Assembly (NCBI RefSeq): GCF_003946245.1
Contig: NZ_RHNN01000014.1
Span: 1 to 64,000 of the forward strand
Reading direction: 5' to 3'
Length of the DNA stretch: 64,000 nucleotides
Source: Levilactobacillus cerevisiae
Lineage (GTDB): Bacteria; Bacillota; Bacilli; Lactobacillales; Lactobacillaceae
Shown piece by piece: positions 39,734-55,991 of the stretch. The notes beneath the pieces are model-generated. The model had not been told where the DNA came from, searched no databases, and worked only from the letters and a program-made list of their open reading frames with translations. Both the position numbers and the translations under genes were made by a program. Position 1 is the first letter of the stretch; every line of letters starts with the position of its first letter.

Positions 39734-40165
39734 ATGCCAACCACATTTAAACGAATTTTAGTGGGTGTCGATGACTCGGCGGATGCGTTACTGGCGTTTG
39801 ATTACGCCATCCATCAAGCAAAACGGGATGGCGCGGAGCTGGTGATTGCGTCGGTCTTGGAAAATGAAACCATGAACGTCTACCAGGCGTTGGACACGGA
39901 CTTTGTCCACGGCCAATACGATGCGCTGAAGCAACACGTCTGCGAGTACCAACGCCAGGCGGAGGCAGCGGGAGTCGCCAACGTCCGCATCACGGTAGCC
40001 GAGGGTGAACCCGGCGAAACGATTGTGAAACAGGTCATCCCCCGCATCAAGCCAGACATTCTAATCGTCGGCTCGATCGCGAAAAAGGGCGTCAGCCGCC
40101 ACTTTGGTAGCCAAGCGGCCTACATGGCAAAGTACGCACCGATTTCGGTGATGGTGGTAAGATAG
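39734..40165 (+). CDS. Universal stress protein (UspA family), linked to mntH copy 2
   Basis: A 143-residue paralogue of the Usp at 37182, with ILVGVDDSADALLAFDYAI and GSIAKKGVSRHFGSQAAYM. It starts 10 nt after mntH copy 2, completing the duplicated operon. A family C array begins right after the stop. Confidence 0.93.
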   Translation: MPTTFKRILVGVDDSADALLAFDYAIHQAKRDGAELVIASVLENETMNVYQALDTDFVHGQYDALKQHVCEYQRQAEAAGVANVRITVAEGEPGETIVKQVIPRIKPDILIVGSIAKKGVSRHFGSQAAYMAKYAPISVMVVR

Positions 40166-40490
40166 AGTAGAGTGCAAGAGCGGGCGATTAGCTGGCGAGC
40201 ATTAACGTCATTAAGGCAATGACCCCGGGTTTGGGTCGTTGTCTTAATGGGGTTAAGCGGAACCCGCTGCCCGCTCTTGCACGTTTCGGCAATAGAAAAT
40301 GAAAGGAAACGTCATTAAGGCAATGACCCCGGGTTTGGGGGTCGTTGTCTTAATGGGGTTAAGCGGAACTGGCTGCCTCTGGTTCACACGTTTCGGCAAC
40401 AGAGAATGAAAGCCGAGTGACCCTGGGCTTGGGGCGTTTGCTTAGCGGGGTTAAGCGGAACCCGCTGCCCGCTGTTGCACGAACTGAAAA
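40166..40490 (+). repeat. Family C hairpin repeat, about three tandem modules
   Basis: Starting at the uspA stop, GAGTGCAAGAGCGGGC...GCCCGCTCTTGCAC is a long outer stem around GTCATTAAGGCAATGACCCC. The inner GTTAAGCGGAACC(C)GCTGC module then recurs at about 40350 and 40445. Confidence 0.8.
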
Positions 40491-40620
40491 TGAATTCAAA
40501 AAAATGGGCAACCCAAACACAGCGGATGCCCATTTTCCTGTCGTTGCAATTCCAGTAGAATGCCTTATGATAAAAGTAGGAAGAAATTTGGCATCGGATG
40601 AAATCAGTGTCAGCCGCAGC

Positions 40621-40783
40621 GATGGTCAAAATGAGCCAAGCCGTGGGAATTCCCTTAGTGGCATTAGCCGCTTAGGGAATTGATAGCTTTGAGACTCGGT
40701 TCTTAGAGGCTCAAAGTAAGTCTGGAGACCGTCCTGTGGCTCCAGACGTTCGCCCACAGCGGTCCGGTCTCATTTTCACCATC
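40621..40783 (-). repeat. Family B element, inverted copy beside mntH copy 2
   Basis: It is a diverged reverse complement of the 37644-37811 element (CTTTGAGACTCG, CTCAAAGTAAGTCTGGAGAC, CGCCCACAGCGGTCCGGTCTC). Its termini GATGGTCAAAATGAG/CTCATTTTCACCATC have one mismatch. Confidence 0.85.
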
Positions 40784-40855
40784 GCGGAGGCGCTGGCAAC
40801 ACCAAGCCAAGTTTCAGAACAAACTATCACGCCGACTGAAAGGATGATTTTCACT

Positions 40856-41563
40856 ATGACTATGAAAGACGTCATCATTGACGACAGCTTTTGGCAAACG
40901 TATCCCGACGCACAAATTAATTTGATGTGGCTCACCGGGTTTGACAACCATGACACGGACGACAATTTGGCCGAACGACAAGAACTCTTGCGGACTGCTA
41001 CTGCGGCTTCCGAGGCGTTTACCAAGGTTGAGCCCTTCCGTGACAATCCGGTAGTTGCGGAATGGCGCGATGCCTATCAACAATTTCCCAAGCGCAAGGG
41101 TGCCCGTTCCTCAATCGAGGCGCTTCTGAAACGTGCTAGTCAGGGCCACGAGTTCACGCCCATCGAGCCGCTGGTTGACGTATACAACAGTATTTCCCTG
41201 CGTTACGGGGTGCCGTTGGGCATTGAAGACCGTGATAAAATTGCGGGCGACCTGCATTTGGGAACGGCTAAGGGTGGCGAATCCTTCTTCCCACTGGGCG
41301 CAGACGAGGACGATCCTGCACGTGAAGGCGAAATGATTTACTACGACGACGAGGGCGCCGTTTGCCGGAGCTTGAACTGGCGGGAAGCGCAACGGACCAT
41401 GTTGACGGACGGCACCACCAACGGCATCGTGGTGATGGAATCCGTCAACCAGGATCAAGCCGAACGGGCGACGAAGGCCATGGCTGACCTGGCAGAATTG
41501 ATTCAACAATACTTCGGGATTAAGCCTGACAAGACAGCCGTACTGAAGGCTGCTGATAAATAA
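40856..41563 (+). CDS. B3/B4 (PheRS-beta-like tRNA-binding) domain protein
   Basis: A 235-residue stand-alone B3/B4 domain protein, related to the domain that accompanies editing in phenylalanyl-tRNA synthetase beta. Typical segments are YQQFPKRKGARSSIEALLKR, PLVDVYNSISLRYGVPLGIEDRDKI and EDDPAREGEMIYYDDEGAVCR. Start is ATG 40856; alternatives are 40844 and 40862. It could be a tRNA or amino-acid quality-control factor. Its function in bacteria is not established. Confidence 0.75.
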   Translation: MTMKDVIIDDSFWQTYPDAQINLMWLTGFDNHDTDDNLAERQELLRTATAASEAFTKVEPFRDNPVVAEWRDAYQQFPKRKGARSSIEALLKRASQGHEFTPIEPLVDVYNSISLRYGVPLGIEDRDKIAGDLHLGTAKGGESFFPLGADEDDPAREGEMIYYDDEGAVCRSLNWREAQRTMLTDGTTNGIVVMESVNQDQAERATKAMADLAELIQQYFGIKPDKTAVLKAADK

Positions 41564-41568
41564 GCACC

Positions 41569-41600
41569 ATGAACTGGTCGTGATGGCCAGTTTTTTTTGT
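41569..41600 (+). terminator. Terminator after the B3/B4 gene
   Basis: AACTGGTC pairs with GGCCAGTT, followed by TTTTTT. Confidence 0.8.
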
Positions 41601-41699
41601 TGGCAAGCGATTCAGGGGCGAATCAATTCTGGGGCGGTCGTAATTCCAGCGCGGTTAGCGGTATAATCGAGGTACATTGGTGTTAGAGGGGGAGATTCG

Positions 41700-42482
41700 T
41701 TGGCATTAAGTCAGGGGAATAAGCAGCCGGTCTATCAATTGTTAGTGACCTGGGTGTTGATGCTAGCTGTCATGGAGGGCGTGGGAGATCTGATGGGGAT
41801 CCTCCACGTGCCGCCGATGGGGGCAATATTTCTTGAAGAATTCGTGTTATTGACGATTCTGTATTTGTTGAATCATTTTTGGCTGCGGGTACCGATTCGA
41901 CTGAAATCAGACATTTCGTGGCGAGGTCAATTGAAAATCAACGTTTTGCCGCTGATCATTATCTTGTTAGACTGCCTCATGTTATTTTTGCCACACCTTC
42001 AGCTAACCAGCCGCACTATCCTGTTCATCCTATTCGCGTTGGTCGTCGGCATCTTTGAAGAATATCTGTTCAGAGGTGTCTTATCGGGCGGGCTGTTACG
42101 GAGCTTTCGGCGGTTCGGCCAGCGCCGTATCTGGCTAGCGGTCGGGTTGAGCAGTCTGCTCTTTGGCATGAGCCATTTGATAAACCTCTCCCATCAGAGT
42201 CTAGGGATGACGGTTGCTCAGATGTTGGTCAATCTTGGTTTTGGCTTGCTGGCCAGTGCTATGTATTTGCGAACGGGGAGTCTGGCTTGGCCCATCCTGT
42301 TGCATTTCATGGATGATGCCCGCGTCCTGGCGCACGCCGGCCTTTCGCAACACAGCGTGGGGCTTTCGACGTTTTCGGGGGCGCTGGGAGGCGCGATTTT
42401 ACTGGTCGTCTATGGCGGCATTGCCTGGTGGCTTCTCCGCCGGTCACAGTGGGCGGACATCAGTGCTAGATTTTTAAAATAA
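41700..42482 (+). CDS. CPBP family intramembrane glutamic endopeptidase
   Basis: A 260-residue, multi-helix CAAX/CPBP protease. The motifs are EEYLFRGVL (EExxxR, about residues 119-127), GMSHLINL (about 158) and ILLHFMDD near the C-terminus. Start TTG 41700 follows GAGGGGGAG. Members process peptides or confer bacteriocin self-immunity in lactobacilli. No bacteriocin gene is visible next to it. Confidence 0.88.
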   Translation: MALSQGNKQPVYQLLVTWVLMLAVMEGVGDLMGILHVPPMGAIFLEEFVLLTILYLLNHFWLRVPIRLKSDISWRGQLKINVLPLIIILLDCLMLFLPHLQLTSRTILFILFALVVGIFEEYLFRGVLSGGLLRSFRRFGQRRIWLAVGLSSLLFGMSHLINLSHQSLGMTVAQMLVNLGFGLLASAMYLRTGSLAWPILLHFMDDARVLAHAGLSQHSVGLSTFSGALGGAILLVVYGGIAWWLLRRSQWADISARFLK

Positions 42483-42666
42483 AGTATTAGGGGTCACAGG
42501 AACGCGACGTAAAAATGCCGTGGAACTGTGGCTTTTTGCTTGGCATTTAGTGTCGGCTATCCTGAATTCGTGTCGCCTGTAAAAAGTTCTGATATTCTCC
42601 GGTATCAGGCGTATAATCAAGGACCTAAAAGGGAATTTTAAAAAAAAGACAGTGAGGGAGTCCGTC

Positions 42667-43188
42667 ATGCAAAATTTAGATTTAACCAACTTGGTGCTCG
42701 GTGCCTGGTTGTTAGTCGTCGTGATCAGACGGCAGTTGGCACCAAAGGTTGTGCGGTTTAAAATGTCATTTTTCCTACTAGTGGTGTTGCTGGGGGCGGC
42801 GTCAGTGGGGGATGCCTTCAACAAGCAACATCTCCAGATCACCGCGCAACAGGCTGTGCTCTTTGGCGTGCTGAGTCTGGTCAGTGCCGTGGCCTTTGCG
42901 TTGTTGCGGGCCTGGTCGTATCGCTTCTGGGTCAACGCCGACGGCTACGTTATGCGTCAAGGAAACTGGCTAACACTAGTCTGGTGGATTGTCGGCATCG
43001 GCATCCACTTGGGCGTTGACCGCCTGTGGACGGGGAGCTCGGTGACCTTGATGCTCTATCTAGGCGTGACGCTGCTGGTGCAACGCGGCTACGTTTGGTG
43101 GCGTGCCAGTCGGCAATATCCGGCAGAAATACGGGCCAATGCGGCGTTACAAGCCGAGCGGCATCATGATCGTCGTCATCGTGACTAA
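42667..43188 (+). CDS. Integral membrane protein, CcdC/DUF1453-like
   Basis: A 173-residue, about four-helix protein. ATG 42667 follows GAGGGAG; a further in-frame start at 42652 lacks a site. Features are RRQLAPKVVRFKMSFFLLV near the N-terminus and a basic His/Arg C-terminus. It resembles CcdC-like proteins in layout, but that is a tentative call. Confidence 0.55.
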   Translation: MQNLDLTNLVLGAWLLVVVIRRQLAPKVVRFKMSFFLLVVLLGAASVGDAFNKQHLQITAQQAVLFGVLSLVSAVAFALLRAWSYRFWVNADGYVMRQGNWLTLVWWIVGIGIHLGVDRLWTGSSVTLMLYLGVTLLVQRGYVWWRASRQYPAEIRANAALQAERHHDRRHRD

Positions 43189-43252
43189 AAGGTAAAGCGT
43201 TGGCATGATCCGTTACGTGGTAGAGGTATAACACTAAAGAATTGGCAGCACT

Positions 43253-43332
43253 GTCTAAACCTACCGGCTGACCGTTCACCAAATTTAGGCCGGAACGCTG
43301 TGGGTAGGACGCCGACAGCCTGGGAAGCGGTC
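43253..43332 (+). repeat. Truncated family B repeat
   Basis: An approximately 80-nt near-identical partner of 13326-13404, sharing CCAAATTTAGG, GTGGGTAGGACGCCGACAGC and AAGCGGT. Confidence 0.7.
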
Positions 43333-43357
43333 CTTCAATCTTTTGAAGCTAAACAAA

Positions 43358-43408
43358 TAGATCCGTGTGCAACCGACATAAGCTGGTTGCACACGGATCT
43401 TATTTTTT
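43358..43408. terminator. Bidirectional terminator next to guaC
   Basis: GATCCGTGTGCAACC pairs perfectly with GGTTGCACACGGATC, flanked by T-rich sequence. Confidence 0.85.
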
Positions 43409-43409
43409 A

Positions 43410-44396
43410 CTAATAATTATCGCCGTTCATGATGGAGCTCTTCACAATCACGTAATCCACGGTCCGAATGTCCAGGAGGTTCCGGCCACCGGCGTAGGAG
43501 ATTGACGATTGCAGGTCTTCTTGCATGGCGTTCAGCGTGTTGGCAATGTCGCCACGGTAAGGCACCAACATTTGCTTGCCTTCTACGTTGCGGTAGGCGC
43601 CCTTTTGCTTCTCGGACGCGGAACCCCAATACTGCTTGAAGGTCCGACCGTCGATGGTCAACAGGCTACCAGGCGATTGTTCGTGACCAGCCAACATTGA
43701 GCCAATCATGACCATGCTGGCTCCGAAACGAATCGACTTGGCGATGTCACCGTTGTAACGAATCCCACCGTCAGCGACGATTGGCTTCCGGGCCGCCTTG
43801 GCACATAAACGGACGGCAGCGAGTTGCCAGCCGCCAGTCCCGAAGCCGGTCTTGAGCTTGGTGATGCAAGCCTTACCAGGACCGATGCCGACCTTGGTGG
43901 CGTCCGCACCAGCATTTTCCAGCTCGCGGACGGCTTCTGGCGTGCCAACGTTTCCGGCAATCACGAAGCTGTCGGGGAGCTTGTTCTTGATTTCCTTGAT
44001 CATCCGAATGACCGCGTCACTGTGGCCGTGCGCGATATCAATCGTGATGTATTCGGGAACCAGGTCAGCAGCCGATAGTTCGTCAATGAAGGCGTGCTCG
44101 TCGTCCTTCACGCCCACGCTAATGGAAGCGAAGAGGGACTTGGCGTGCATCCGTTCGATGAAGCCGCGGCGTTCTTCCGGATGGAAACGGTGCATCACGT
44201 AGAAATAATCGTGTTGCGCCATCCAAATGGCTAAGGGCTCGTTGATGACCGTTTCCATATTGGCGGGCACAACCGGAATTTTAAACCGGTGGGGGCCAAA
44301 TTCGATGCTGGTATCGGCCTCGCTCCGACTATCAATGATACATTTATTGGGAATCAATTGAATATCTTCGTAATCAAATACTTCAGCAGGATGCAT
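43410..44396 (-). CDS. guaC: GMP reductase
   Basis: A 328-residue IMPDH/GMPR family TIM barrel of the bacterial GuaC2 type. It lacks the CBS domains of IMP dehydrogenase. Active-site loop [13 protein letters not shown] holds the catalytic Cys (about residue 174). Other parts are [15 protein letters not shown] and [15 protein letters not shown]. It deaminates GMP to IMP with NADPH. ATG 44396 follows AAGGAGTGA. It starts 26 nt after the purA stop and is expected to be cotranscribed with purA. Confidence 0.95.
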
Positions 44397-44421
44397 GTGC
44401 AGTCACTCCTTGTTCGTGGGG

Positions 44422-45708
44422 TTAGGCGTTCCAGACGTCTTGTAAAATGTTGGTCTGTTCGCGGTCGGGGCCGACGGAAAGCGTGGCAATATCCACGCCA
44501 ACCAGTTCGGCTAAGCGTTTAACGTAATTTTGGGCATTAACGGGTAGGTCTTCAACTGAGTGGCAGCCGGTAATATCTTCCGTCCAACCGGGCAGTTCTT
44601 CGTAAATCGGTTCGCAGGCGTCAAGGTCGACCAAGCTAGCGGGGTAATGGTAAATGGCCTCGCCGTTTAATTGGTAAGCCTTGCAAATTTTAAGGGTCTT
44701 CAGACCAGTCAGCACGTCGAGACAGTTCAGCGACAGGCTAGTTAAGCCAGACACCCGCTTGGCATGCCGGAGAACGACACTGTCAAACCAGCCGATTCGC
44801 CGGGGCCGCTTGGTGACGGTACCGTATTCGTGGCCAGTTTCCCGAATAGTGTCCCCGATTTCATCGAAGAGTTCAGTGGGGAAGGGCCCATCACCGACAC
44901 GGGAGGTGTAGGCCTTGCAGACGCCAACCACGTGGTCGATCTTAGTTGGGCCGACGCCGGCACCAATGGTCACACCACCAGCGACGGGGTTCGAGGATGT
45001 GACGAAGGGATAAGTCCCATGGTCGATATCCAGCATGACACCTTGCGCGCCTTCAAACAGAACGTTCTTGCCGGCATCAATCGCATCGTTGATGACTACG
45101 GAGGTGTCGGTCACGTGGCCCTTAATTTGTTGGCCCAGTGCGTAATATTTATCAAATACATCGTCAAAGTTGAGTGGTTCTACATTATATAACTTGGTTA
45201 AGACGTTATTCTTTTCAATTAAGTTTTGCCGTAATTTATCAGCTAAAATGTCGTGGTCAAGCAAATCGGCGATTCGAATCCCGATTCGTTCGGCCTTATC
45301 CATGTAAGCGGGGCCGATACCTTTATTAGTGGTCCCAATTTTGTTTTCCTTGGCCTTTTCTTGCGCCTGATCCAAGAGGATATGGTAAGGCAGGATCACG
45401 TGGGCCCGGTCGGAAATCCGGAGATTGTCCGTGGAGACGCCATTTTCGTGCAGGTAAGTGAGTTCTTCAATCAAGGATTGTGGGTTCACAACCACACCGT
45501 TACCAATCACGCTCAGCTTGTCGGCGTAGAAAATCCCGGATGGAATCAGCCGCAGCTTGAACGTTTGACCATTGAAAACAATGGTATGGCCGGCGTTGTC
45601 ACCACCTTGGTAGCGGGCAATGACATCAGCCTTCTCACTCAGAAAATCCGTGATCTTTCCTTTACCTTCATCGCCCCATTGACTACCAACTACTACTGTT
45701 GATGACAT
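44422..45708 (-). CDS. purA: Adenylosuccinate synthetase
   Basis: A 428-residue GTP-dependent ligase making adenylosuccinate from IMP and aspartate. ATG 45708 follows GAGGTG; the longer frame from 45747 is not needed. The P-loop [12 protein letters not shown] lies at residues 8-19. Other motifs include [42 protein letters not shown] and the C-terminal VGPDREQT. It is divergent from purB, with PurBoxes between them, and linked with guaC. Confidence 0.98.
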
Positions 45709-45791
45709 TGCAAACACCTCATCGTTATTATTTGCTAGGCCGAACACCCAGCAAGAATCATTGTATCAAGTTCGGAAATGAATTGCAAGTG

Positions 45792-45804
45792 AAAAGCGAA
45801 CAAT
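45792..45804 (+). promoter_or_regulatory. PurBox-like site upstream of purA
   Basis: AAAAGCGAACAAT differs at one base from AWWWCCGAACWWT, the PurR binding sequence. It lies 84 nt before purA on the opposite side from the gene. Confidence 0.55.
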
Positions 45805-45924
45805 TTATTTAATAATCGATATAAAAGTTCTTATAATAACGGGTAGAAATAGATTAATAATCAAAATAACGGTGAAACTGCTGGCTAAAATGGGATATTC
45901 TGTGCTAAAATAGATATCAGAGAA

Positions 45925-45957
45925 ATAAACGAAAATTAAATTTAATGTTCGGTTTTT
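45925..45957. promoter_or_regulatory. PurBox pair upstream of purB
   Basis: On the minus strand AAAACCGAACATT (complement of 45944-45956) is a perfect PurBox. An inverted degenerate partner with CGAA at 45930-45933 completes a palindrome with 18-nt centre spacing. PurR (PRPP-sensing) control of purB, and probably purA, is inferred. Confidence 0.65.
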
Positions 45958-45982
45958 ACCTATTTTCAAGGAGGAAAAGTGC

Positions 45983-47281
45983 ATGTTAGAACGCTATACC
46001 CGACCAGAGATGGGCCAGATTTGGTCCTTAGAGAATCAATACGAGTCTTGGCTAGCCGTCGAAATCGCGATCGATGAGGCTTGGGCCAAGTTGGGCGAGG
46101 TTCCCACCGAAGACGCGCAAAAGATTCGGGCCAATGCGACCTTTGACGTTGACCGGATTGCTGAAATTGAAGCCGTGACGCACCATGATATGGTTGCCTT
46201 TACCCGGAACGTTTCGGAATCCCTGGGTGCCGAACGCAAGTGGATTCACTTTGGGGTCACCAGTACGGACGTGGTGGATACCGCGCAGGGTTACCGTTTG
46301 AAACAAGCCAATGCCGTGTTGCGCCAGGATTTGGTGACGCTGATTGCCACCCTGAAGAAAATGGCGCTGCAATATAAGGAAACCGTCATGATTGGTCGGA
46401 CACATGGGGTGCAAGCCGAGCCTACCACGTTTGGTCTGAAATTAGCGCGCTTCTACGCCGAAATGCAACGCAATCTGGAACGCTTTGACCGTGCTGCGAC
46501 CGCCGTGGAAACGGGAAAAATCAGTGGTGCTGTCGGGACGTTTGCCAACGTGCCACCTGAAGTTGAAGCCTTTGTCTGCGACCAACTGAAAATTAGCGCG
46601 CAGCCAATCGCCAGCCAAGTGCTGCCACGGGACCTGCACGCCGACTATATTGCGACGTTGGCCCTAGTGGGGACCAGTGTGGAAAACATTGCCACGGAGA
46701 TTCGGAGCCTTCAGCGCTCAGAAATCCATGAAGTAGAAGAACACTTTAGCGCTGGGCAAAAGGGCTCATCGGCCATGCCCCACAAGCGTAATCCGATTGG
46801 CTCGGAAAACGTCACCGGCTTGGCACGGGTCCTGCGGGGCACCATGGTGACGGCTTACGAAGACGTTAGCCTGTGGCATGAACGAGACATTTCCCATTCC
46901 TCAGCTGAACGGATGATTTTGCCGGAGAGTACGACGTTGCTGGACTACATGCTCCACCGCATCAACCGGATTCTAAGCAATTTGGATGTCTTCCCGGAGA
47001 CGATGAAGGCCAATATGAACCGGACTTACGGGCTGATTTACAGTCAACGCCTCCTATTGAAGTTGATTGAGGCCGGTCTGAGTCGAGAAGATGCCTATGA
47101 CTTGGTGCAACCGTTGACCGCCCAAGCCTGGGATCAGCAGATTCAGTTCCGACCATTGGTAGAAGCAAATGCCGAAATTACCCAGCACCTGACACCGGCT
47201 GACATTGCGGACGCGTTTGACTATCACTACCATCTGCGTCGCGTGGACTTCATTTATAAACGGTTAGGGTTAACGGAATAG
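45983..47281 (+). CDS. purB: Adenylosuccinate lyase
   Basis: A 432-residue member of the fumarase/aspartase superfamily. The signature GSSAMPHKRNPIGSE is near residues 261-275. Other motifs are THHDMVAFTRN, VTSTDVVDT and GRTHGVQAEPTTFG. It cleaves SAICAR and adenylosuccinate, so works in both purine synthesis and the AMP branch. Start ATG follows AAGGAGGAAA. Confidence 0.98.
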   Translation: MLERYTRPEMGQIWSLENQYESWLAVEIAIDEAWAKLGEVPTEDAQKIRANATFDVDRIAEIEAVTHHDMVAFTRNVSESLGAERKWIHFGVTSTDVVDTAQGYRLKQANAVLRQDLVTLIATLKKMALQYKETVMIGRTHGVQAEPTTFGLKLARFYAEMQRNLERFDRAATAVETGKISGAVGTFANVPPEVEAFVCDQLKISAQPIASQVLPRDLHADYIATLALVGTSVENIATEIRSLQRSEIHEVEEHFSAGQKGSSAMPHKRNPIGSENVTGLARVLRGTMVTAYEDVSLWHERDISHSSAERMILPESTTLLDYMLHRINRILSNLDVFPETMKANMNRTYGLIYSQRLLLKLIEAGLSREDAYDLVQPLTAQAWDQQIQFRPLVEANAEITQHLTPADIADAFDYHYHLRRVDFIYKRLGLTE

Positions 47282-47341
47282 CCATGTCGCTGGACTGACG
47301 GAATGACGTGCTAGTCGCTTGAATAACGGGAGGAATATCTC

Positions 47342-47572
47342 ATGACGAAAGTTTACGCACCAGCGGATGCACAACGAGATTTTTTGGATTTGTTACGCCA
47401 GGTTAGTTCGGGGAAGTCGGTCAAAATTGAAGCGCCCCAACAGGCCGGAAACGGGGCCATTCTCGTGAGTGAATCCCAGTGGACCGCCATGCAACAGCAG
47501 TTACAGCAGGCGAACCAAACGCATGAGATTCAGGATCGTGAGGACTTGTATAAGGCTTGGCGGTGGCTGTAG
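47342..47572 (+). CDS. Orphan Phd/YefM-type antitoxin-like protein 1
   Basis: A 76-residue protein with a Phd/YefM-type N-terminal layout (APADAQRDFLDLLRQVSSGKSVKI, ILVSESQWTAM) and a charged C-terminus. No toxin gene follows. Instead a second protein of the same type lies 71 nt downstream. ATG follows GGGAGGAAT. It could be a remnant of a toxin-antitoxin operon or a stand-alone regulator. Confidence 0.6.
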   Translation: MTKVYAPADAQRDFLDLLRQVSSGKSVKIEAPQQAGNGAILVSESQWTAMQQQLQQANQTHEIQDREDLYKAWRWL

Positions 47573-47643
47573 ACGATTAGGACCTTAGAATACAGCAACT
47601 TGAAGAGAATTTTTGGCGTGTTATTCTGGGAGGACTGCTTTTG

Positions 47644-47898
47644 ATGATGAAGAAGCCGTATGTACCAAACCGTAATCAGCATGAGTTACTTGCTTTGTTG
47701 CGGCAAGCAAACCAGTCCAAGGGAGCCGTAGAAATTCAACCATTGGATGGAGAGAAAAGTGCTTTCGTGGTTGGTGAAGATGAATGGCATGCTATTCAGG
47801 AGACGTTATTTTTAATTAACCGCGGTGTTGATCAGCAAATTCGTCATCGAGAAGCGGATGAAGATGTAGATTTTGATCAAGCTTGGCGGTCAATATGA
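47644..47898 (+). CDS. Orphan Phd/YefM-type antitoxin-like protein 2
   Basis: An 84-residue relative of the preceding protein (NRNQHELLALLRQANQSKGAVEI, SAFVVGEDEWHAIQETLFLI, ending DFDQAWRSI). The shared final W-containing segments (YKAWRWL and FDQAWRSI) argue for duplication. Starts at 47641 (TTG), 47644 and 47647 are in frame; GGGAGGA fits ATG 47644 best. No toxin partner is present. Confidence 0.6.
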   Translation: MMKKPYVPNRNQHELLALLRQANQSKGAVEIQPLDGEKSAFVVGEDEWHAIQETLFLINRGVDQQIRHREADEDVDFDQAWRSI

Positions 47899-47930
47899 TT
47901 GAAAAGCTAGGCTAATTCCAGCGCAAAATA

Positions 47931-47977
47931 AAAAGATTCGTCGCGTTCTCGGGGAAGAACGTGGCGAATCTTTTTTC
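47931..47977. terminator. Bidirectional terminator beside the orphan antitoxin genes
   Basis: GATTCGTCGCGTTC and GAACGTGGCGAATC form the stem with T-runs on both strands. Confidence 0.8.
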
Positions 47978-48120
47978 ATGAGGAGTGCATTCACTTAAGG
48001 GGGTGTGAATGCATTTTAGAGGGGTGATTAGGCTTGAGGGAACCTAATCAGGGAATGATTCTCTTAGGGGGAGAGAATCTAAAAGGGATTGGATATAGAA
48101 TTTGGTTAGTAATAGTTATT
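47931..48120 (-). ncRNA. Candidate sRNA with four C-rich loops
   Basis: Read on the minus strand, three perfect stem-loops follow one another: 48057-48079 (8 bp, loop CCCCCTA), 48025-48050 (8 bp, loop TTCCCTCAAG) and 47986-48013 (9 bp, loop ACCCCCTTAA). The terminator hairpin at 47931-47976 (loop TCCCC) follows. Repeated UCCC/CCCC loops are the hallmark of Gram-positive sRNAs that pair with Shine-Dalgarno sites (RsaE/RoxS and LhrC classes). No family match is claimed. The 5' end is not determined; it may be its own transcript or come from the hydrolase 3' UTR. Confidence 0.6.
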
Positions 48121-48278
48121 GGCTAATTACTATGATTATTACTATACCCTGAGCTTGTGAAGAGAAAAGGGCCAAATTCGTGACGACTTTTTGATTAAAA
48201 AGTAAAGAAAAAATAAAGTGTGAAGATTCTGCGGAAAACGCAAGGTGGCCGTAAACGCTGTTAAGTTAGGCTTAAGCT

Positions 48279-49217
48279 TCAGTTCTCGTCAAAGTACGTT
48301 TGCAGAAATTCCGTCACGTGTTGTTGGTAACGGGCCGGATTGGTCCAGAAACTTTCCGCGTGTGAGGCGTTTTTCACAATCCAAAGTTGCTTGGGTGCGT
48401 GGGTGGCGGCGTAGTTTTCATAGGCCATCCCCACCGGCACGTAAACGTCCTGTTCCCCGTGAATGAAGAGAATTGGCCGTTTGTTCTTCTGGAGTTGTTC
48501 CGTCGCCGTTACGTCACCCAGGTAATAGCCCAGTCGCCGCTTGGAAATGGTGCTGACCATGGGTTCAATCGGGTATTTTGGTAAATGAAATTGGCGCTTC
48601 AACAGGTAGGTCAGTTCGGCCTCGATGCTGGAGTAGCCGCAATCGGCAATGATTGCCTTCACTTGTGGTGGTAAGGTTTCGCCGGACAACATTTCCATGG
48701 TGGCGCCGCCCATGCTGACGCCAAACAATAGAATTTTCACGTCGGCGTTGGCACGGTCAATGACTTGCTGGATCCACTGGAGGTAGTCCAACCGGTCGAG
48801 CCAGCCAAAGCTAATATACTTGCCGGCGCTCTCGCCGTGGCCCCGGTCGTCCGGTAACAGGACGTTAAAACCCAGGCGGTGATACATTTGGGCAAAGTTC
48901 GCCATGGTTTCGCCGTTGCCCTTGTAGCCGTGAGAAATAATCACGGTCTGCTTGCTGGGGGTCTCGGCGGGGATGTACTCCGCCACCATCCGGTTTTGCG
49001 GGTCCGTTTCGTGGAGGTACCATTTCTCCTTCTTGACCTGCTTGTACCAGTCGACGTAAGCGTAATAAGCGTCCGCGTATTTCTGCTTGTCGGCCGAGGT
49101 TTCGGGGACGTAGTTGACGCGTTTAAATGCAAAATTAAAGAGATGTTCACTGGCGGCCAGTGAGGTCAGGGCGATTCCGGCGAGCGGTAGGGCCCAGGTC
49201 AATGTTTTCTTCTTCAT
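48279..49217 (-). CDS. Membrane-anchored alpha/beta hydrolase
   Basis: A 312-residue serine hydrolase with an N-terminal signal-anchor (MKKKTLTWALPLAGIALTSLA). The cap-less alpha/beta fold carries ISHGYKGNGETM (oxyanion), nucleophile Ser in LFGVSMGGATM, acid in GEQDVYVPV and His in KNASHAESFW. ATG 49217 or TTG 49223 could start it; AAAGGA lies 5 nt before the TTG. It belongs to the YqiK/YqkD-like group, probably an exported esterase. It shares no operon with the phosphatase upstream. Confidence 0.82.
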   Translation of the reverse strand: MKKKTLTWALPLAGIALTSLAASEHLFNFAFKRVNYVPETSADKQKYADAYYAYVDWYKQVKKEKWYLHETDPQNRMVAEYIPAETPSKQTVIISHGYKGNGETMANFAQMYHRLGFNVLLPDDRGHGESAGKYISFGWLDRLDYLQWIQQVIDRANADVKILLFGVSMGGATMEMLSGETLPPQVKAIIADCGYSSIEAELTYLLKRQFHLPKYPIEPMVSTISKRRLGYYLGDVTATEQLQKNKRPILFIHGEQDVYVPVGMAYENYAATHAPKQLWIVKNASHAESFWTNPARYQQHVTEFLQTYFDEN

Positions 49218-49250
49218 CAGCAATCAGTTCCTTTCAAATGTGGGTGGGGT

Positions 49251-49288
49251 TAAAAAACCAGACTACCCGTTTAATCGGTTAGCCTGGC
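49251..49288 (-). terminator. Terminator of the tyrosine phosphatase gene
   Basis: CCAG-CTA-CC pairs with GG-TAG-CTGG, with TTTTTT on the minus strand. Confidence 0.65.
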
Positions 49289-49296
49289 ATGGATGT

Positions 49297-50091
49297 TTAG
49301 TCCAAATAAAGTCGTTTCAAAGTGGTTAAGTCGCTGTGTGAGAGGCCGAGGACGTCATGCAAGTAGTCCTGGGTGCCGCCATACTGGGTGTTGATGACCT
49401 TCATGGCCGCAGCCAAGTAGTCGGCGTTGACCGTGGAGAGGGCCCGAATATTAGCAACAAAATTTTCGGTATGGCCGTCTTGGCGGGCCTTGTCACTCTG
49501 GCGGTCGACCAATGGCATCACGTTCGGATTGGTTAACAGGTAATCTTGCTGGATGGTCTGCGGGTCAACGTTCAAGGCGCTCAAGGCTAAGAAAGCGCCC
49601 ATTCCCGTGCGGTCCTTACCAGCGGTACAGTGGAACAACACGGATTGTTGGTCCACCTCGTTGCCCAAGAGCGTGCCGAAGAAATTGTGGTAGGCTTCTT
49701 GCGCGGTCGGTAACGTCACCATTTTCTGGTAAACGTCGAGCATGTGGCGATAACCGGATTCGTTGTCGCCGTTGAACCGGGCCTCCAATTGTTCCTGTGT
49801 GGCGGAGGCGTCAGTCTCATCGTCGGCCGGGAAGACTGGCAGAAAATGGTACTTAACGCCAGCCGGAACCTTGTCGGGCGCCATTTTTTGTTCGTCTTTT
49901 GACCGGAAGTCCACATCGGCCGCGACCCCATAGTCCGTCAACAGTTGTTGATCTTCTGGGGTGAGGCGGGCTAAGCCGTCCGTCCGCAATAACTTGTGCC
50001 ACTTAACCGTGTGGCCGTCGACAGTCTTGTAGCCCCCTAGTTCGCGGAAGTTCCAGCCGCCCGTCACGTTTAATTTTCGGTTATTTGTCAT
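49297..50091 (-). CDS. Tyrosine/serine protein phosphatase (MptpB/PF13350 type)
   Basis: A 264-residue phosphatase with the P-loop HCTAGKDRTGMGAF (CX5R, nucleophile Cys about residue 156), preceded by NVTGGWNFRELGGY and RTDGLARLT. These are typical of the lipid- and protein-phosphatase family including MptpB. ATG 50091 follows AGGGTGG. Substrates in lactobacilli are unknown. Confidence 0.9.
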   Translation of the reverse strand: MTNNRKLNVTGGWNFRELGGYKTVDGHTVKWHKLLRTDGLARLTPEDQQLLTDYGVAADVDFRSKDEQKMAPDKVPAGVKYHFLPVFPADDETDASATQEQLEARFNGDNESGYRHMLDVYQKMVTLPTAQEAYHNFFGTLLGNEVDQQSVLFHCTAGKDRTGMGAFLALSALNVDPQTIQQDYLLTNPNVMPLVDRQSDKARQDGHTENFVANIRALSTVNADYLAAAMKVINTQYGGTQDYLHDVLGLSHSDLTTLKRLYLD

Positions 50092-50190
50092 TGGTTTCTT
50101 GCCACCCTTTCAGATTTACTGGTACGCCCTCTATTCTAACGGTTTTGGTGAAAATTACCTAGTAATTCAATCTGAGGGAAGCGTTTTTTG

Positions 50191-50204
50191 TGAAAACGCT
50201 GTAT
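50191..50204. promoter_or_regulatory. cre-like site upstream of the esterase gene
   Basis: TGAAAACGCTGTAT matches the cre left half and core, overlapping a possible -10 box TATACT (50202-50207). Confidence 0.45.
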
Positions 50205-50257
50205 ACTGGCAATATAAGTCGAGAGAATTGGTGAAGGACAAAGATAGGGTGATAGTC

Positions 50258-51142
50258 GTGAGTTTGCGTGGGAAATGGTTACTCTTCAAGACCCAGCATA
50301 GTCAGCTCAAACAGCAGATTCAACAAGCATTTTTACAGCCCAGTCGGCAAAATCGGGCTGTGGTGCCAGAAAAGTTTCCGGCTACCATTGTAACGAAGGA
50401 GCGCCAAGTTTTTGGTGGGCGCATTTTAACCGCAGCGTCCGGTGCGCCATTACCGCAACACGTGTTGTTATTTCACGGTGGCGCGTACACGATGCAGGGC
50501 ATCGACAGCCATCGCGAGTTGATGGAAACGTTGGTCCAGCAGGCAAACCTGCGCATCTCATACATTGATTATCCGCTGGTGCCCGAAGCCACCGTGGACG
50601 AAACCGTGGTCTTTGCCATGAACGCCTACGAGTATCTGCGGGCCCAATATCCGGACGATCAGTTTTTCCTGATGGGCGATTCAGCCGGTGGTGGACTGGC
50701 GTTAACGCTGCTCCAACAGTTGAAAATTCATCAAGAACCCTTACCAGCCGGCACGGTGCTCATTTCGCCGTGGACCGACCTGAGCATGATGAATCCAGAT
50801 TTAAAAACGGCGGCCAAGCACGATCCGTACTTAACGCTGGCCACGCTAAAGAAAATTGGTTTTGATTACGCCGGGAAGCACCCGGTGACCGACCCACTCG
50901 TCAGCCCGATTTACGGCGAATTTGACGATCTCGGGCCAATTCTATTGTATTACGGCACGAATGAATTATTAGCCGCGGATGACGAGCGGCTGATTCAAAA
51001 GTTACAAGAGGCCAGCGGCACCCCGGCCAAGGTCCACGAGCTAAAGTCGATGCTCCACGATTATATCCTGTGGGGTAAGTTGCCTGAGTCTAAACGGACT
51101 TTGAAGGAAGTTAAGCAGTTTATATTGACGGGAAAGTTATAG
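50258..51142 (+). CDS. HSL-family alpha/beta hydrolase (acetyl-esterase type)
   Basis: A 294-residue esterase. GTG 50258 is preferred, with AGGGTG 7 nt upstream; the longer frame back to 50099 would run through the promoter and cre region. HGGAYTMQG supplies the HGG oxyanion motif, GDSAGGGLALTLL the nucleophile Ser, GTNELLAADD the acid and MLHDYILW the His. It hydrolyses short-chain esters. A family C element follows the stop directly. Confidence 0.85.
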   Translation: MSLRGKWLLFKTQHSQLKQQIQQAFLQPSRQNRAVVPEKFPATIVTKERQVFGGRILTAASGAPLPQHVLLFHGGAYTMQGIDSHRELMETLVQQANLRISYIDYPLVPEATVDETVVFAMNAYEYLRAQYPDDQFFLMGDSAGGGLALTLLQQLKIHQEPLPAGTVLISPWTDLSMMNPDLKTAAKHDPYLTLATLKKIGFDYAGKHPVTDPLVSPIYGEFDDLGPILLYYGTNELLAADDERLIQKLQEASGTPAKVHELKSMLHDYILWGKLPESKRTLKEVKQFILTGKL

Positions 51143-51480
51143 AGTGCGGAACGAGCCGCTTAGACTCTGAGCATTAGGGAGCCCCAGGGCTTCTGTTCGG
51201 CTTCGCCGGGCAGGAGTTCTGGGGCTTTCTAAGCGGAGGAGTCTGGCTCGTGTAGCACGTTTCAGAGGCTGCATATTTCCGAGTTGTTCCGTGGAGAACC
51301 AGTCAAACGGGCTAAAGCAAAGTAGGCTCAAAGGAAAGTCCCGCATCGAACAGGGGAAATAACAGAACCGAAGTTAAGGACCCGCCCCGTGTAGCACGTT
51401 TCAGAGGCTGCATATTTCCGAATTGTTCCGTGTAGAACCAGTCAAACGGGCTAAACCAGAAGGCTGGTAAACGCCAACCA
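51143..51480 (+). repeat. Family C nested-hairpin elements, two copies
   Basis: Directly after the stop, GTGCGGAACGAGCCGCTTAG pairs with CTAAGCGG...GGCTCGTGTAGCAC around a CCCCAG/CTGGGG hairpin. A second 3' module (CCGTGTAGCACGTTTCAGAG, GTTCCGTGTAGAACCAGTC) begins at about 51384. Confidence 0.8.
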
Positions 51481-51843
51481 ATTTCAATAAACAATATCCA
51501 AACAATATAGAAGCGTAGACGAAGGGCTAAAACCCACCATCCGTCTGCGCTTTTACTATCTAAAAGCCCTTAATCATTCCAACCTACACGATCCCCCCAA
51601 AACTATCTCCCCGCCCCCCGAAAAGCACCACCCCAAATCTCCAAAATTGCCCCAACCTTAACCCCAATAACTAAACCGCCACCGCGATAAGCTAAGCCAG
51701 TCCTACACTCCCCCGGGAAACCCCGACCCACCCGTTACCAGGGACTTGGTTAGACCATTTAATTATGCTAACGCCGCGTGGTGATTAGTCGTCCTTTTCC
51801 CGGCAGCGCGGGGTATAATGAAGCTTATATGGAGGGGATGCTC
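51481..51843. other. C-rich gene-free stretch upstream of the S53 protease
   Basis: A hairpin AGCGTAGACG/CGTCTGCGCT ending in TTTT is at about 51508-51556. From about 51580 to 51740 the plus strand is very C-rich and G-poor (CCCCCCAAAA, CCCCGCCCCCCG). The protease gene's promoter and GGAGGGGA ribosome site follow. No gene is visible. Confidence 0.55.
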
Positions 51844-53682
51844 ATGAGGATTCGTATTCTGGTGGCTGGCCTAATTGTGGGGCTGGGCAGCTTTGGTGGC
51901 GTAACCGCCATGGCGGCAAGTACCAGCACGCTGGCGACACCGTATCGGGAGAGTCAATTATCTAATTTAAAAAATGTGAAACAGGTTTCTGGCAGTAAGA
52001 CCGTGACGCTGGATTTAGTTTTGAATTCGCGTAACTCGGCGGAGCTGACCAAGACCGCCTACGCCGTGAACACATCCGGCAACAAGCAATTTAAGTCCTA
52101 CTTAACGCCTAAGCAGTTTCGGCAAAAGTTCGGGCAGTCCACGACCACAACTAAGCGGTTGGCAAAATACTTTAAAGCACATAAGTTCAAGGTCACGACA
52201 TTTAATGACGGCCTGATCATGCAGATTAAGGGGAGCACGGCGGCCGTCAATAAAACCTTTGCGACCAAACTGAAGACGGCCAGCTATCACGGCAAGAAGA
52301 TTCAGTTCTCCAAGCAGACGCCAAAGCTGCCGACCAACGTGGCTAAGCCCATCAAGGCCGTGGTCGGCATCACGAACCTGGTGAAGATGAGCAGTCTGGC
52401 GGATACCACGAGCACCAGTTCCGACGGGCCGACCAGCGATGGTGCGCCACAGAACTTCCTCAAGCAGTACGACGCCACGAACCTGGGCAATCAGGGAAAG
52501 GGCGAAACCATTGGCATCATTAGCTTTAGCAAGGTGAACAAGAGTGACATCACCCATTTCTGGTCCGAAGAGGGCATCTCGTCTTCCGCCAACCGAATCA
52601 GTGTTAAGTCCACGGGCGGCATGGATGTCTGGGGCAATGTCGATCCCGGCAACGAGGAAACATCTTTAGACGTCGAGCAGGCTGGAGCGATTGCACCGAA
52701 GGCCAACGTGCGCGTTTACACGGCGTCGTTGAGTGACGTCGGTTGGTTGAACGCCTTTGCCACGGCCTTTGGTGAGAACAAGGCGAGTTCCTTATCGCTG
52801 AGCTGGGGCCTGTCAGAAGGTGTGCTGGCCAGTTTGAACAAATACAACCTAATCACGCCGCTCTACGGCAGCATCATGAATACGTTGCTGGCACAGGGCG
52901 CCGTTCAAGGGGTCTCCACGTTTGCGGCCACCGGGGATACCGGGGCTTACGGTGAAGAGCTCGACAAGAATGGCGACACGAGCGAGGGCATTTACGCCAA
53001 CTTCCCCGCGAACAATCCGTGGGTCACGGCCACTGGTGGGACCACGTTGCCAGTCTCCGGTACGCTGGCCAACGGCGTGAAGGTGAACATTTCTAAGGAA
53101 CGGACGTGGGGCGGCGATGCGCTGTTTGGCGCCTACTTCCAGGACGAAAACTTTTTCAAAAAGAATTCAGATTTGATGGACACACTCCAAAGCGGCAGTG
53201 GCGGTGGCATTTCCACGTTGTACGCCACGCCGCAATACCAAAAGGGCGTTTCCGGCGTCAACACCTATAACGCCCGGCAATACCTGACGGCGAGTGGTCT
53301 GCCGCGGTCGAACCCGAGTCTGATTACTGGCAAGGCCAGCGGGCGGAACTATCCGGACGTGGTGGCCAATGCCGACCCGATTACCGGGTATGACGAGTAC
53401 ACCAGCACGGACGGATGGGAAACGACGGGCGGCACCAGCGTGGTCGCACCGCAGTTTGCGGCCATGGCGGCAGTCATCAACAGTAACCGCAGCAAGCGCA
53501 TGGGCCTCTGGAACCCGCAACTCTACGCGTTAGCCCAGACCAGCAAGTCGCCGTTTACCAAATTAGATTCCGATACGGACAACGGCAACCTGTTCTACGT
53601 CGGCCAACCTGGCAAGACGTACAACCAAGCGGCCGGACTGGGAACGTTGGACTTTGACCAGCTGGCCAAGGTGTTTAAGTAA
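51844..53682 (+). CDS. Secreted pro-kumamolisin/sedolisin protease (S53)
   Basis: A 612-residue exported serine-carboxyl peptidase. ATG 51844 follows GGAGGGGATG. Signal peptide to about residue 26 (GGVTAMAA), pro-domain about 30-180 (activation Pro_kumamolisin with FKSYLTPKQFRQKFG), then the catalytic domain. EETSLDVEQ carries the Glu/Asp pair, GGTSVVAPQFAAM the catalytic Ser, and the C-terminal GLGTLDFDQL region the calcium site. Such enzymes work at acidic pH, which suits a lactic acid producer. Wall-anchor motifs are absent, so it is secreted or loosely bound. Confidence 0.9.
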   Translation: MRIRILVAGLIVGLGSFGGVTAMAASTSTLATPYRESQLSNLKNVKQVSGSKTVTLDLVLNSRNSAELTKTAYAVNTSGNKQFKSYLTPKQFRQKFGQSTTTTKRLAKYFKAHKFKVTTFNDGLIMQIKGSTAAVNKTFATKLKTASYHGKKIQFSKQTPKLPTNVAKPIKAVVGITNLVKMSSLADTTSTSSDGPTSDGAPQNFLKQYDATNLGNQGKGETIGIISFSKVNKSDITHFWSEEGISSSANRISVKSTGGMDVWGNVDPGNEETSLDVEQAGAIAPKANVRVYTASLSDVGWLNAFATAFGENKASSLSLSWGLSEGVLASLNKYNLITPLYGSIMNTLLAQGAVQGVSTFAATGDTGAYGEELDKNGDTSEGIYANFPANNPWVTATGGTTLPVSGTLANGVKVNISKERTWGGDALFGAYFQDENFFKKNSDLMDTLQSGSGGGISTLYATPQYQKGVSGVNTYNARQYLTASGLPRSNPSLITGKASGRNYPDVVANADPITGYDEYTSTDGWETTGGTSVVAPQFAAMAAVINSNRSKRMGLWNPQLYALAQTSKSPFTKLDSDTDNGNLFYVGQPGKTYNQAAGLGTLDFDQLAKVFK

Positions 53683-53703
53683 GCTGAAATGATTGGTTTA
53701 AAT

Positions 53704-53747
53704 GAAAAACGTCGCTCACCGAGAAATTGGTGGGCGACGTTTTTAGT
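53704..53747 (+). terminator. Terminator after the S53 protease gene
   Basis: AAAACGTCGCTCACC pairs with GGTGGGCGACGTTTTT. Confidence 0.85.
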
Positions 53748-53863
53748 TTAGACAAATTTGGACTAAATAAATGAGATGGAATTACTTGAGAGACGCAAGT
53801 GTAAGGGTTAAATGGATGTCAGCCGAGAGGTCATTTCGTCTGACTGGTAAGGCGCTGTCCCAG

Positions 53864-55735
53864 CTATTTCACGTTCCGAACAAGTTGCGGGTTCCCGGTA
53901 ATGTAGCCGCCGGCAACGCGGTAACGCAGGGTGTCACGCTTACCGAAGTTGTTGGCGTTGCTGTAGTCCCAACCCAGAACGGTGAAGGTTGGGTGACTCT
54001 TGAATGCGTAGTGCCGGTTGCGTTTTGTCAGGTTCACGTTGCTGTAACGGTTCAGCGCTTGCTTGGCCGTCACGCGTTTGGGCATGGTCACCTTGCCCGC
54101 CTGCACCAGTTTCTTGTTGGCGGTGACATAGCGGCCGTTGCTTAGGACAAAACGTTTCGTCAGTTTGTGGCTGACAATCTTTTTCACCTTGAGCACCTGT
54201 CCCTGACGGTAGTGGGTGGTCTTCTTGGTCAGGTTCTTGTTGCCGTACGCATTGATACCTTGCGGATTGATCACGGTAATCTTGGCCTGCTTTTTCGCGT
54301 AGTAAACGCGGCTGGTATAGCGACCGTTGGCGGTAATATAGCCCGTCTTCCCGGCAGTCTTGCTGTGATGATTGACGTCCTTCACGTGGTAACGCTTAAC
54401 GCCATTCTTGGATTTCGCGTAACCGGTCACGACAAACATTGGTCGGTTCTGCCGCGACTTTTTCGCGTACCATTGTTTGCGCGACTGTTTGGTGAAGGCA
54501 GCTGATTTGTAAAGGCCAATCTTGTTGGTGGCGTAAACGACACTGCCTTTAGGCGCAGTGATGTCGGCCCCGGCACCACTGGTCAGGACTTTTTGGTAAA
54601 CGTAGGTCACGGTCTGAGCGGTACTGGTAAATTTGCCAGTCGCATTGGCCGGCGTGGTCTTCAACGCGTAGTTGGTAATCTTGCGCGCGGAACTTTCATA
54701 AGTGGTTCCTAGGTCACCCGTCAGCGTCTGGGGATCGGCCAGCGCGTTGCCAGCGGTATCCACGTAATGCACGGTCACCGGTTGGCTGGTTGCGGGCGTT
54801 GGCGTGGGATCTGGTCCCGGATTGGGGTCCACGATGGGTGGCAGGACCTTGTCGTCGAAGCTGAAGATGGAAAGTTCAGGATAGATAATCATGCCACTCA
54901 GTTGATAGGTGCCATCGGCTTGCTTCGTCAGATAGGTCGAGAGTGGCTGGGCTAACGCGGCTTTCGTTTCAGCAGCGGACGTGTCTGGGTTCAACTGGGT
55001 CCGTTGCTCTAGCGTGTAGTCGGCAACGTGGACCTTTTGGATCAGGGCAGGAAGAACCATGCCATACAGATATTTTTCAAGTGAAACAAACTTTGCTTCG
55101 TCCTCGAATGCGGGATCGTATTGGGTGAGCAAAGAGTCTTGACCGGTGGCAATCAGTCCGGGCCGAATCTTTTCCTTGTAGGTCTGTTGCATGTGTGCGT
55201 AGTTGCTCTGGTCAATTTGATATTGCGTGAGATTACTGATCCACCATGCATCTGAGTAGGCACCAAATTCGGCGGCGTAGAGGGAATCTGCCAAACTGTC
55301 ATACTCGTCAGGCGCTAAGCTGTAAAAGTACGCGCCGACAGTAGTATCTGCGGCAGCAGTTAGCTTTTCACCAAAGTAAGTTTGAAAGAGGTAAGACATG
55401 CTTTGTGCAATTTCATCATTATCATTATATTTAGCAAAATCCGCCATATAAGCATCATCGTTCAGCTGGTCAACCGTCAAAGCGTTCGCGCCACCAGCTG
55501 GGTCGGCACTCAGGTCCTTCTTCAGCCAGTAAGACTTCGTGACTTGTTGATTCTGAATTAATTTCGTATAGGGCAATTCCACGGAACTAATCGTATAGGT
55601 CTGTTCAGCAGCTTTGGTCGTCGTAGTCGGTTCAGCAGTGGCAGCGTCAGCGGAAATTACGCTGGGACTGAGGATTCCGCCGCAAAGAATCACGGTCAAT
55701 CCCACAGTCACGAGTTGTCTAAGGCCCCTAGTCAT
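53864..55735 (-). CDS. MucBP/DUF5776 surface protein 1
   Basis: A 623-residue exported protein with signal peptide (about 1-32) and a unique N-terminal domain (about 40-310) rich in helices. One MucBP repeat follows at about 315-385 (VTVHYVDTAGNALADPQTL). The C-terminal wall-attachment-like region (about 395-623) has DUF5776 type repeats (RPMFVVTGYAKSKNGVKRYHV, TGYITANGRY) ending in WDYSNANNFGKRDTLRYRV. It is a paralogue of the next gene (55992), with about half of positions matching outside the N-terminal domain. There is no LPxTG. Confidence 0.85.
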   Translation of the reverse strand: MTRGLRQLVTVGLTVILCGGILSPSVISADAATAEPTTTTKAAEQTYTISSVELPYTKLIQNQQVTKSYWLKKDLSADPAGGANALTVDQLNDDAYMADFAKYNDNDEIAQSMSYLFQTYFGEKLTAAADTTVGAYFYSLAPDEYDSLADSLYAAEFGAYSDAWWISNLTQYQIDQSNYAHMQQTYKEKIRPGLIATGQDSLLTQYDPAFEDEAKFVSLEKYLYGMVLPALIQKVHVADYTLEQRTQLNPDTSAAETKAALAQPLSTYLTKQADGTYQLSGMIIYPELSIFSFDDKVLPPIVDPNPGPDPTPTPATSQPVTVHYVDTAGNALADPQTLTGDLGTTYESSARKITNYALKTTPANATGKFTSTAQTVTYVYQKVLTSGAGADITAPKGSVVYATNKIGLYKSAAFTKQSRKQWYAKKSRQNRPMFVVTGYAKSKNGVKRYHVKDVNHHSKTAGKTGYITANGRYTSRVYYAKKQAKITVINPQGINAYGNKNLTKKTTHYRQGQVLKVKKIVSHKLTKRFVLSNGRYVTANKKLVQAGKVTMPKRVTAKQALNRYSNVNLTKRNRHYAFKSHPTFTVLGWDYSNANNFGKRDTLRYRVAGGYITGNPQLVRNVK

Positions 55736-55955
55736 TTTAGAACACTCCTTTTACCTTTGGCTGTCGTATCTAGTAGCAGTATAACATGAATGTAGGTGTT
55801 AATCCTAAGACAATCGCCCGTATGAAGGCGATTATGGGCGGATTGCCTAACTACTTGTCGGTCGGTTAAGTAATTGAACTAACTTTGCTCAGATTGGATG
55901 ATGTGTCCGGTTGGCATGGGCAATTGCGCAAGTGCTTTTGCCCAGTAATTGTCTT

Positions 55956-55988
55956 AAAAGAAGCCTGGATGTTATCCAGACTTCTCGG
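55956..55988 (-). terminator. Terminator of the 55992 gene
   Basis: AGAAG-CTGGAT pairs with ATCCAG-CTTCT, with TTTT on the minus strand. Confidence 0.7.
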
Positions 55989-55991
55989 TAA

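Follow-up and report, generated by a model that had tools for sequence, protein, structure and literature searches.

We describe here a putative regulatory RNA gene, which we call sRNA1, in a 64,000-nucleotide stretch of the Levilactobacillus cerevisiae genome (the window). Judged from sequence and comparison with relatives, the minus strand of 47930-48134 is most likely the gene for a free-standing regulatory RNA of ~200 nt. It probably acts in trans, being co-activated with sister sRNAs and HtrA by the regulator that controls htrA, and blocking Shine-Dalgarno sites. A preliminary description had proposed a small RNA at this position, and that call holds up, in that the minus strand carries a long, conserved and covarying RNA gene.

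Extent and fold of sRNA1

The 5′ start is likely A 48133, within the sequence CATAG, and the 3′ end likely falls in the T-run of the terminator near 47930. The RNA has a minimum free energy (MFE) of -56.1 kcal/mol compared with -20.5 ± 3.5 kcal/mol for 200 dinucleotide shuffles (z = -10.2), none of which was as good. The MFE fold contains the three hairpins with C-rich loops and the terminator that had been described on the minus strand. The stem lengths of 8, 8 and 9 bp given for them are right for hairpins 1 and 3, but hairpin 2 has 10 bp and the loop CCCTCA rather than TTCCCTCAAG. Likewise the interval originally marked, 47931..48120, lies inside the RNA gene but leaves out the promoter (48217-48141) and cuts into the 5′ hairpin (48132-48107). 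The motif CCAATCCC lies within the single-stranded stretch between the 5′ hairpin and the C-rich-loop hairpins, and hairpin 3 is flanked by the linker CCCCTCTAAAA and the tail CTCCTCATGA (Table 1).

Table 1. Coordinates of sRNA1, its promoter elements and two sister genes (window positions, except for the sister genes).
Feature	Position	Strand	Basis or remark
Putative sRNA gene (sRNA1)	47930..48134	-	~204 nt; covariance-model match 1-203/203
5′ hairpin TAGTAAT...ATTACTA	48107..48132	-	MFE fold in 33/34 sequences, exception L021
Hairpin 1, loop CCCCCTA, 8 bp	48057..48079	-	MFE fold
Hairpin 2, loop CCCTCA, 10 bp	48025..48050	-	MFE fold
Linker CCCCTCTAAAA, single-stranded	48014..48024	-	alignment of relatives
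Hairpin 3, loop ACCCCCTTAA, 9 bp	47986..48013	-	MFE fold
Tail CTCCTCATGA, single-stranded, Shine-Dalgarno-complementary	47976..47985	-	alignment of relatives
Intrinsic terminator, long stem, loop CCCC, then T-rich	47930..47975	-	MFE fold
sRNA1 promoter region	48141..48217	-	alignment
-10 box TATAGT	48141..48146	-	conserved in relatives
Response-regulator-type hexamer TTCACA, 9 nt upstream of -10	48156..48161	-	conserved in relatives
Upstream conserved array, ~11-bp spacing	48162..48217	-	ATCAAA 48190-48195, GTCACG 48179-48184
Putative sRNA2, same promoter type	G000:C10:72609 (L222)		
Putative sRNA3, same promoter type	G000:C24:2951 (L226)		

In line with the earlier view that no coding role fits this region, there is no ORF of at least 40 aa at 47898-48245 on either strand, and no tRNA or tmRNA was found in 40000-56000. 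Comparison with Rfam covariance models, which had been proposed as a check, places sRNA1 in no family: the whole window gave no match at the gathering score, a permissive search of the sRNA1 locus (E up to 10) gave four chance-level matches only, and a search of five loci at E 0.1 likewise returned no family. The sRNA1 terminator is absent from the output of a simple terminator scan, we think because its stem is longer than the pattern used by the scan.

Conservation and covariation

A DNA search of 58 genomes found sRNA1 in 34 of the 35 Levilactobacillus genomes, and the sole exception (G006) is only 72% complete. Among the 23 genomes from outside the genus, one gave two short weak matches. 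The alignment of sRNA1 comprises the 34 Levilactobacillus sequences. In a covariance-model alignment the five helices covary, with changes on both sides at 33 of 46 pairs and 95.8% of cells paired. The covariation score, which is raised by the fitting of this alignment to the structure, was 0.414 against 0.167 for shuffled alignments, and none of 500 shuffles scored as high. When the partner was slid by 1-3 columns pairing fell to 28-42%. An unfitted MAFFT alignment showed double changes at 22 of 38 predicted pairs.

Changes on both sides were seen at 7/8 pairs of hairpin 1, 6/10 of hairpin 2, 8/9 of hairpin 3 and all 10 modelled pairs of the terminator. The 5′ hairpin has such changes at two of nine pairs, the other seven being invariant, and 98.7% of its cells are paired. 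Single-sequence MFE folds contain the three C-rich-loop hairpins in all 34 sequences. The exposed segments are strongly kept: loop 2 has CCTCA in 34/34 sequences and CCCTCAA in 30/34, the linker has CCTC in 34/34 and CTCCTC in 28/34, the tail has CCTCA in 34/34 and CTCCTCA in 32/34, and CTCCTC occurs somewhere in the RNA in all 34. Hence covarying stems and constant loops, the pattern against which the preliminary description had asked its proposal to be judged, are what these 34 sequences exhibit.

Neighbouring genes

According to Pfam sRNA1 is flanked by purB on one side and by an alpha/beta hydrolase gene on the other. The hydrolase had been named as a neighbour before, and it does lie upstream on the same strand, 144 nt away in the window, but sRNA1 has a promoter of its own. 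The gene is upstream of sRNA1, on the sRNA1 strand, in 34/34 loci, although in four of these (L009, L010, L012 and L014) another ~0.3 to 1.2 kb of DNA separates it from the RNA. We found purB in 27 of the 34 fetched sRNA1 stretches. A locus from a different genus (L060) preserves the series purB, RNA, hydrolase, interrupted by one extra ORF.

Two small tandem ORFs (47342-47572 and 47641-47898) look alike by eye and occur in only part of the genus. They had been called orphan antitoxin genes, and we too take them to recall antitoxins that have no toxin partner; Pfam does not back this call, giving no family for either ORF.

The sRNA1 promoter

Hexamer repeats followed by a -10 box are the layout on which OmpR-class response regulators act as activators. 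The -10 box of sRNA1 is TATAGT in 31 of 33 loci parsed by script (TATATT in L015 and TAATAT in L034), as it is by eye in L007. In the loci parsed by script, CATAG follows the box after 6 nt. The pattern [TG]TCACA-N9-TANNNT is found upstream of sRNA1 in 34/34 loci. Weaker repeats continue upstream at steps of ~11 bp, one step being 12; the first of them, 11 bp from TTCACA, is degenerate, and the next lies at 23 bp. Within this array ATCAAA-N5-GTCAC resembles the htrA operator RTCAAA-N5-TTCAYA. A sigma-70 scan proposed a single hexamer pair at sRNA1, which we think is wrong.

The htrA and pst promoters

We examined the htrA promoter because the streptococcal CiaR regulon includes both htrA and the csRNAs (excerpts of PMC3091779 and PMC8317062), and because the Bacillus CssRS secretion-stress system, which controls htrA, has the canonical box TTTTCACA (excerpts of PMC6749698). 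All 30 fetched htrA loci carry TTCAYA-N9-TANNNT, with the same spacing as in sRNA1 and its sister sRNA3; the box is TTCACA in 23 of them and TTCATA in seven, and an RTCAAA-like hexamer stands 11 bp further upstream in 27/30 by the pattern used. In the pst loci, on the other hand, TTTACA-N9-TANNNT occurs in 30/30 and TTCACA-N9-TANNNT in none. The pst promoters have a near-invariant array of four TTTACA-type repeats every 11 bp, in the expected place in 29/30 loci (L175-L204), with the last repeat 9 nt from the -10 box TATACT. By our reading this array would be a PhoP-type operator. PhoP was our first idea for the regulator of sRNA1; since the pst promoters bear TTTACA in place of TTCACA and htrA has TTCAYA, the regulator of htrA is the better candidate and PhoP was demoted.

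The operator pattern is rare elsewhere. There is one [TG]TCACA-N9-TANNNT site per locus in 34 sRNA1, 30 sRNA3 and 23 htrA loci, and only four further sites in the sRNA1, sRNA3, htrA and pst loci taken together (~842 kb, both strands). The full CssR octamer TTTTCACA is absent from the operators of sRNA1 (0/34) and htrA (0/30), and appears in 3/30 sRNA3 stretches, well upstream of the operator. One promoter of the L. cerevisiae genome (L223, G000:C2:134558), that of a gene which we read as encoding an arylsulfotransferase-like lipoprotein, mixes TTCACA and TTTACA repeats, and therefore the two boxes may not have separate regulators.

We also observed an intergenic repeat of ~65-110 bp upstream of pst (L069, about 2470-2555, G000:C11) which has many copies. 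With 18 candidates scored, it gave at least 18 matches in 23 of 34 Levilactobacillus genomes and 1 to 6 in the other 11, and the copies are 80-98% alike among the matches listed.

Sister RNAs and their spread in the Lactobacillaceae

A search of the same genome (G000) with TTYACA-N5-TTYACA-N9-TANNNT, allowing one mismatch, gave six sites; the control gave none forward and one reverse. By our reading of the sequences these sites belong to pst, a ugp-like transporter gene, the arylsulfotransferase-like lipoprotein gene, two sRNA-like genes and one other gene. The genome carries several sibling intergenic RNAs with a common promoter type, namely sRNA1, sRNA2 and sRNA3.

Matches to sRNA3 were found in 34/34 genomes at E ≤ 0.001, the weakest at 7.7e-5. 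The box GTCAYA-N5-TTCACA-N9-TA and the loop ACTCCTCCAA are each present in 30/30 fetched loci. A consensus fold recovers the 5′ hairpin and terminator of sRNA3 without its CUCCUCC hairpin, which we think was lost through a gap shift in the alignment. Matches to sRNA2 occur in 28/34 genomes at E ≤ 0.001, seven of the 28 being weak (E above 1e-14), and the full promoter pattern is found at 12 of 30 sRNA2 loci, a count that includes the sRNA3 locus (L316). In place of CTCCTC, sRNA2 has the loops GCCCCAACC and CCTCTAACC.

The covariance model of sRNA1 matches 32 of 397 Lactobacillaceae genomes, including all 25 of the Levilactobacillus genomes sampled; the remaining seven, from three further genera, match with E values of 3e-7 to 4e-4. 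A strict promoter pattern derived from sRNA3, TCACA-N6-TCACA-N9-TANNNT-N4-7-CATA, reaches further, with matches in 108/397 genomes and 15/40 genera compared with one match for the reversed pattern. The promoter of sRNA1 falls outside this pattern owing to its degenerate middle repeat. We inspected 32 pattern sites in 30 fetched loci. The RNA would begin with CATAG at 29 of them, and at 27 CTCCTC follows within 200 nt downstream, compared with 0.034 expected by background in that length. In a crude check for a T-run beyond 60 nt, 26 sites were positive. Five sites are without CTCCTC, and one site, L276, leads into coding sequence. Some genomes carry three or four strict-pattern sites, some of them in tandem. 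The sister RNAs in the listed loci adjoin genes other than those next to sRNA1. By eye we saw no recurring regulator gene in the flanks of 13 of the 30 pattern loci, and Rfam returned two tRNAs and no sRNA family for 20 sister loci. Two or three promoters or RNAs of this type stand in a row in other genera, at G380:C15:132122-132660, G366:C12:10071-10334 and L064 1279-1640.

Possible pairing with translation start regions

The unpaired segments of sRNA1 bind the start regions of 48 ORFs of the window better than they bind 480 coding windows (p = 7e-9). The same segments reversed bind the start regions equally well, and the test therefore speaks only for C/U-richness and says nothing on seeds. 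A search of the genome with GAGGAGTG-N2-10-ATG gave 17 matches, two of them overlapping, compared with three for the forward and two for the reverse control. From their translations some of the genes resemble ftsL, sepF, lemA, and genes for a phosphonate-binding lipoprotein and an Nramp transporter; we list these as candidate targets only and do not claim them as regulated. The predicted binding of sRNA1 to G-rich Shine-Dalgarno sites is plausible.

The leader of htrA (L319-L348) has GGAGGG in 30/30 loci and ATGAGGAG in 18/30. The second of these motifs is complementary to CTCCTCAT in sRNA1, and therefore feedback on htrA is possible.

Alternative readings

The trans-acting RNA could also be pictured as a phosphate-starvation RNA controlled by PhoP. 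The pst promoters do share its promoter geometry, PhoP boxes of B. subtilis can have C as their third letter, and the L223 promoter combines both hexamers; set against this, the TTCACA form is missing from every pst locus and TTCAYA is present at every htrA locus, and we regard this reading as unlikely. Alternatively the C-rich hairpins might serve as a sink, with sRNA1 binding a protein or sponging other RNAs rather than mRNA start sites. An RNA with several C-rich loops that look alike does resemble protein-titrating designs, and no seed specificity emerged from the reversed-segment control. However, the loops and linkers keep CCTCA, CCTC and CTCCTCA, which are complementary to Shine-Dalgarno cores, and we know of no C-binding partner in these bacteria; a sink appears decidedly improbable.

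The position of the hydrolase gene, on the same strand and invariably upstream, would also fit an sRNA1 that is only a processed 3′ end or an attenuator of the hydrolase mRNA, with no independent role. Several observations speak against this: a promoter is kept in front of the RNA in 34/34 loci, other sequence separates the two genes in four loci, the sister RNAs sit beside other genes, and strong stem covariation runs over the whole RNA. Of the three alternatives it is the one to which we give least weight, and we consider it very improbable.

A model for sRNA1 function

In the model that we prefer, a response regulator of the OmpR/PhoB class which also controls htrA (CiaR- or CssR-like) would bind the TTCACA-type repeats, so that envelope or protein-export stress would switch on sRNA1, the sister sRNAs and the HtrA protease together. 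The exposed CUCCUC, CCCUC and CCCCC segments would then pair with several mRNAs at their Shine-Dalgarno regions and keep ribosomes from binding there, and the many loops, together with the sibling RNAs, may give additive control of several targets.

More broadly, and with somewhat less assurance, we lean towards a multicopy class of Shine-Dalgarno-blocking sRNAs that spans the Lactobacillaceae and is wired to the htrA-controlling two-component system. It would be a counterpart of the streptococcal CiaR-csRNA circuit that was built independently or has diverged deeply, and it would have an operator of its own (TTCACA repeats) and a common design (CATAG 5′ hairpin, CUCCUC loop, terminator). If so, a set of sibling sRNAs tied to htrA would couple post-transcriptional control throughout the family to stress at the envelope or in secretion, and would raise the question of whether the csRNA circuit had two separate origins or is more ancient than assumed. 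With the promoter pattern, many sister-sRNA members in a genome are simple to list.

Base-pairing RNAs in lactobacilli, which matter as food and probiotic bacteria, seem little known. According to a 2021 paper, sRNAs in Lactobacillus had been described in only one earlier report (PMC8220740), and the L. casei BL23 sRNA list of that paper may include relatives. Our search of the open-licence literature gave no published description of sRNA1 in lactobacilli among the matches listed.

Comparison with known systems

The preliminary description had likened sRNA1 to the RsaE/RoxS and LhrC classes. RsaE/RoxS of Staphylococcus and Bacillus has C-rich motifs that are regarded as binding elements for Shine-Dalgarno sites, and an architecture that differs from that of sRNA1, and the LhrC family of Listeria is multicopy, with C/U-rich loops and two-component control. 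Rfam holds models for both, yet neither is among the matches of sRNA1 (none at the gathering score in the window, nor among the four permissive matches with E up to 10 at the locus), and this assignment is not upheld. The CssR box TTTTCACA has TCACA in common with the sRNA1 operator, but the complete octamer is not part of the sRNA1 or htrA operators. To our knowledge the CssRS regulon has no sRNAs.

The csRNAs of Streptococcus are intergenic sibling sRNAs of 51-202 nt, numbering 2-6 in a genome, that carry stretches complementary to translation-start regions; in their promoters two hexamers are spaced 11 bp apart, and ~10 nt separate the second from the -10 box (excerpts of PMC3091779 and PMC8317062). 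Like them, sRNA1 has siblings, a hexamer-repeat promoter, Shine-Dalgarno-complementary segments and an operator type common with htrA, and the csRNA class is the closest design because of the sibling copies and this shared operator. The two differ in that sRNA1 has four hairpins before the terminator (its sisters mostly fewer) and is found in Lactobacillaceae, the comparison of sequence having been made through Rfam alone. Furthermore, the csRNA operator NTTAAG-N5-TTTAAG is replaced at sRNA1 by the box [TG]TCACA with ATCAAA and GTCAC upstream, and because the CiaR operator defines the class we do not file sRNA1 as a csRNA. From the sequence features considered here, sRNA1 is best called a putative two-component-controlled sibling sRNA, csRNA-like in design with another operator and another sequence.
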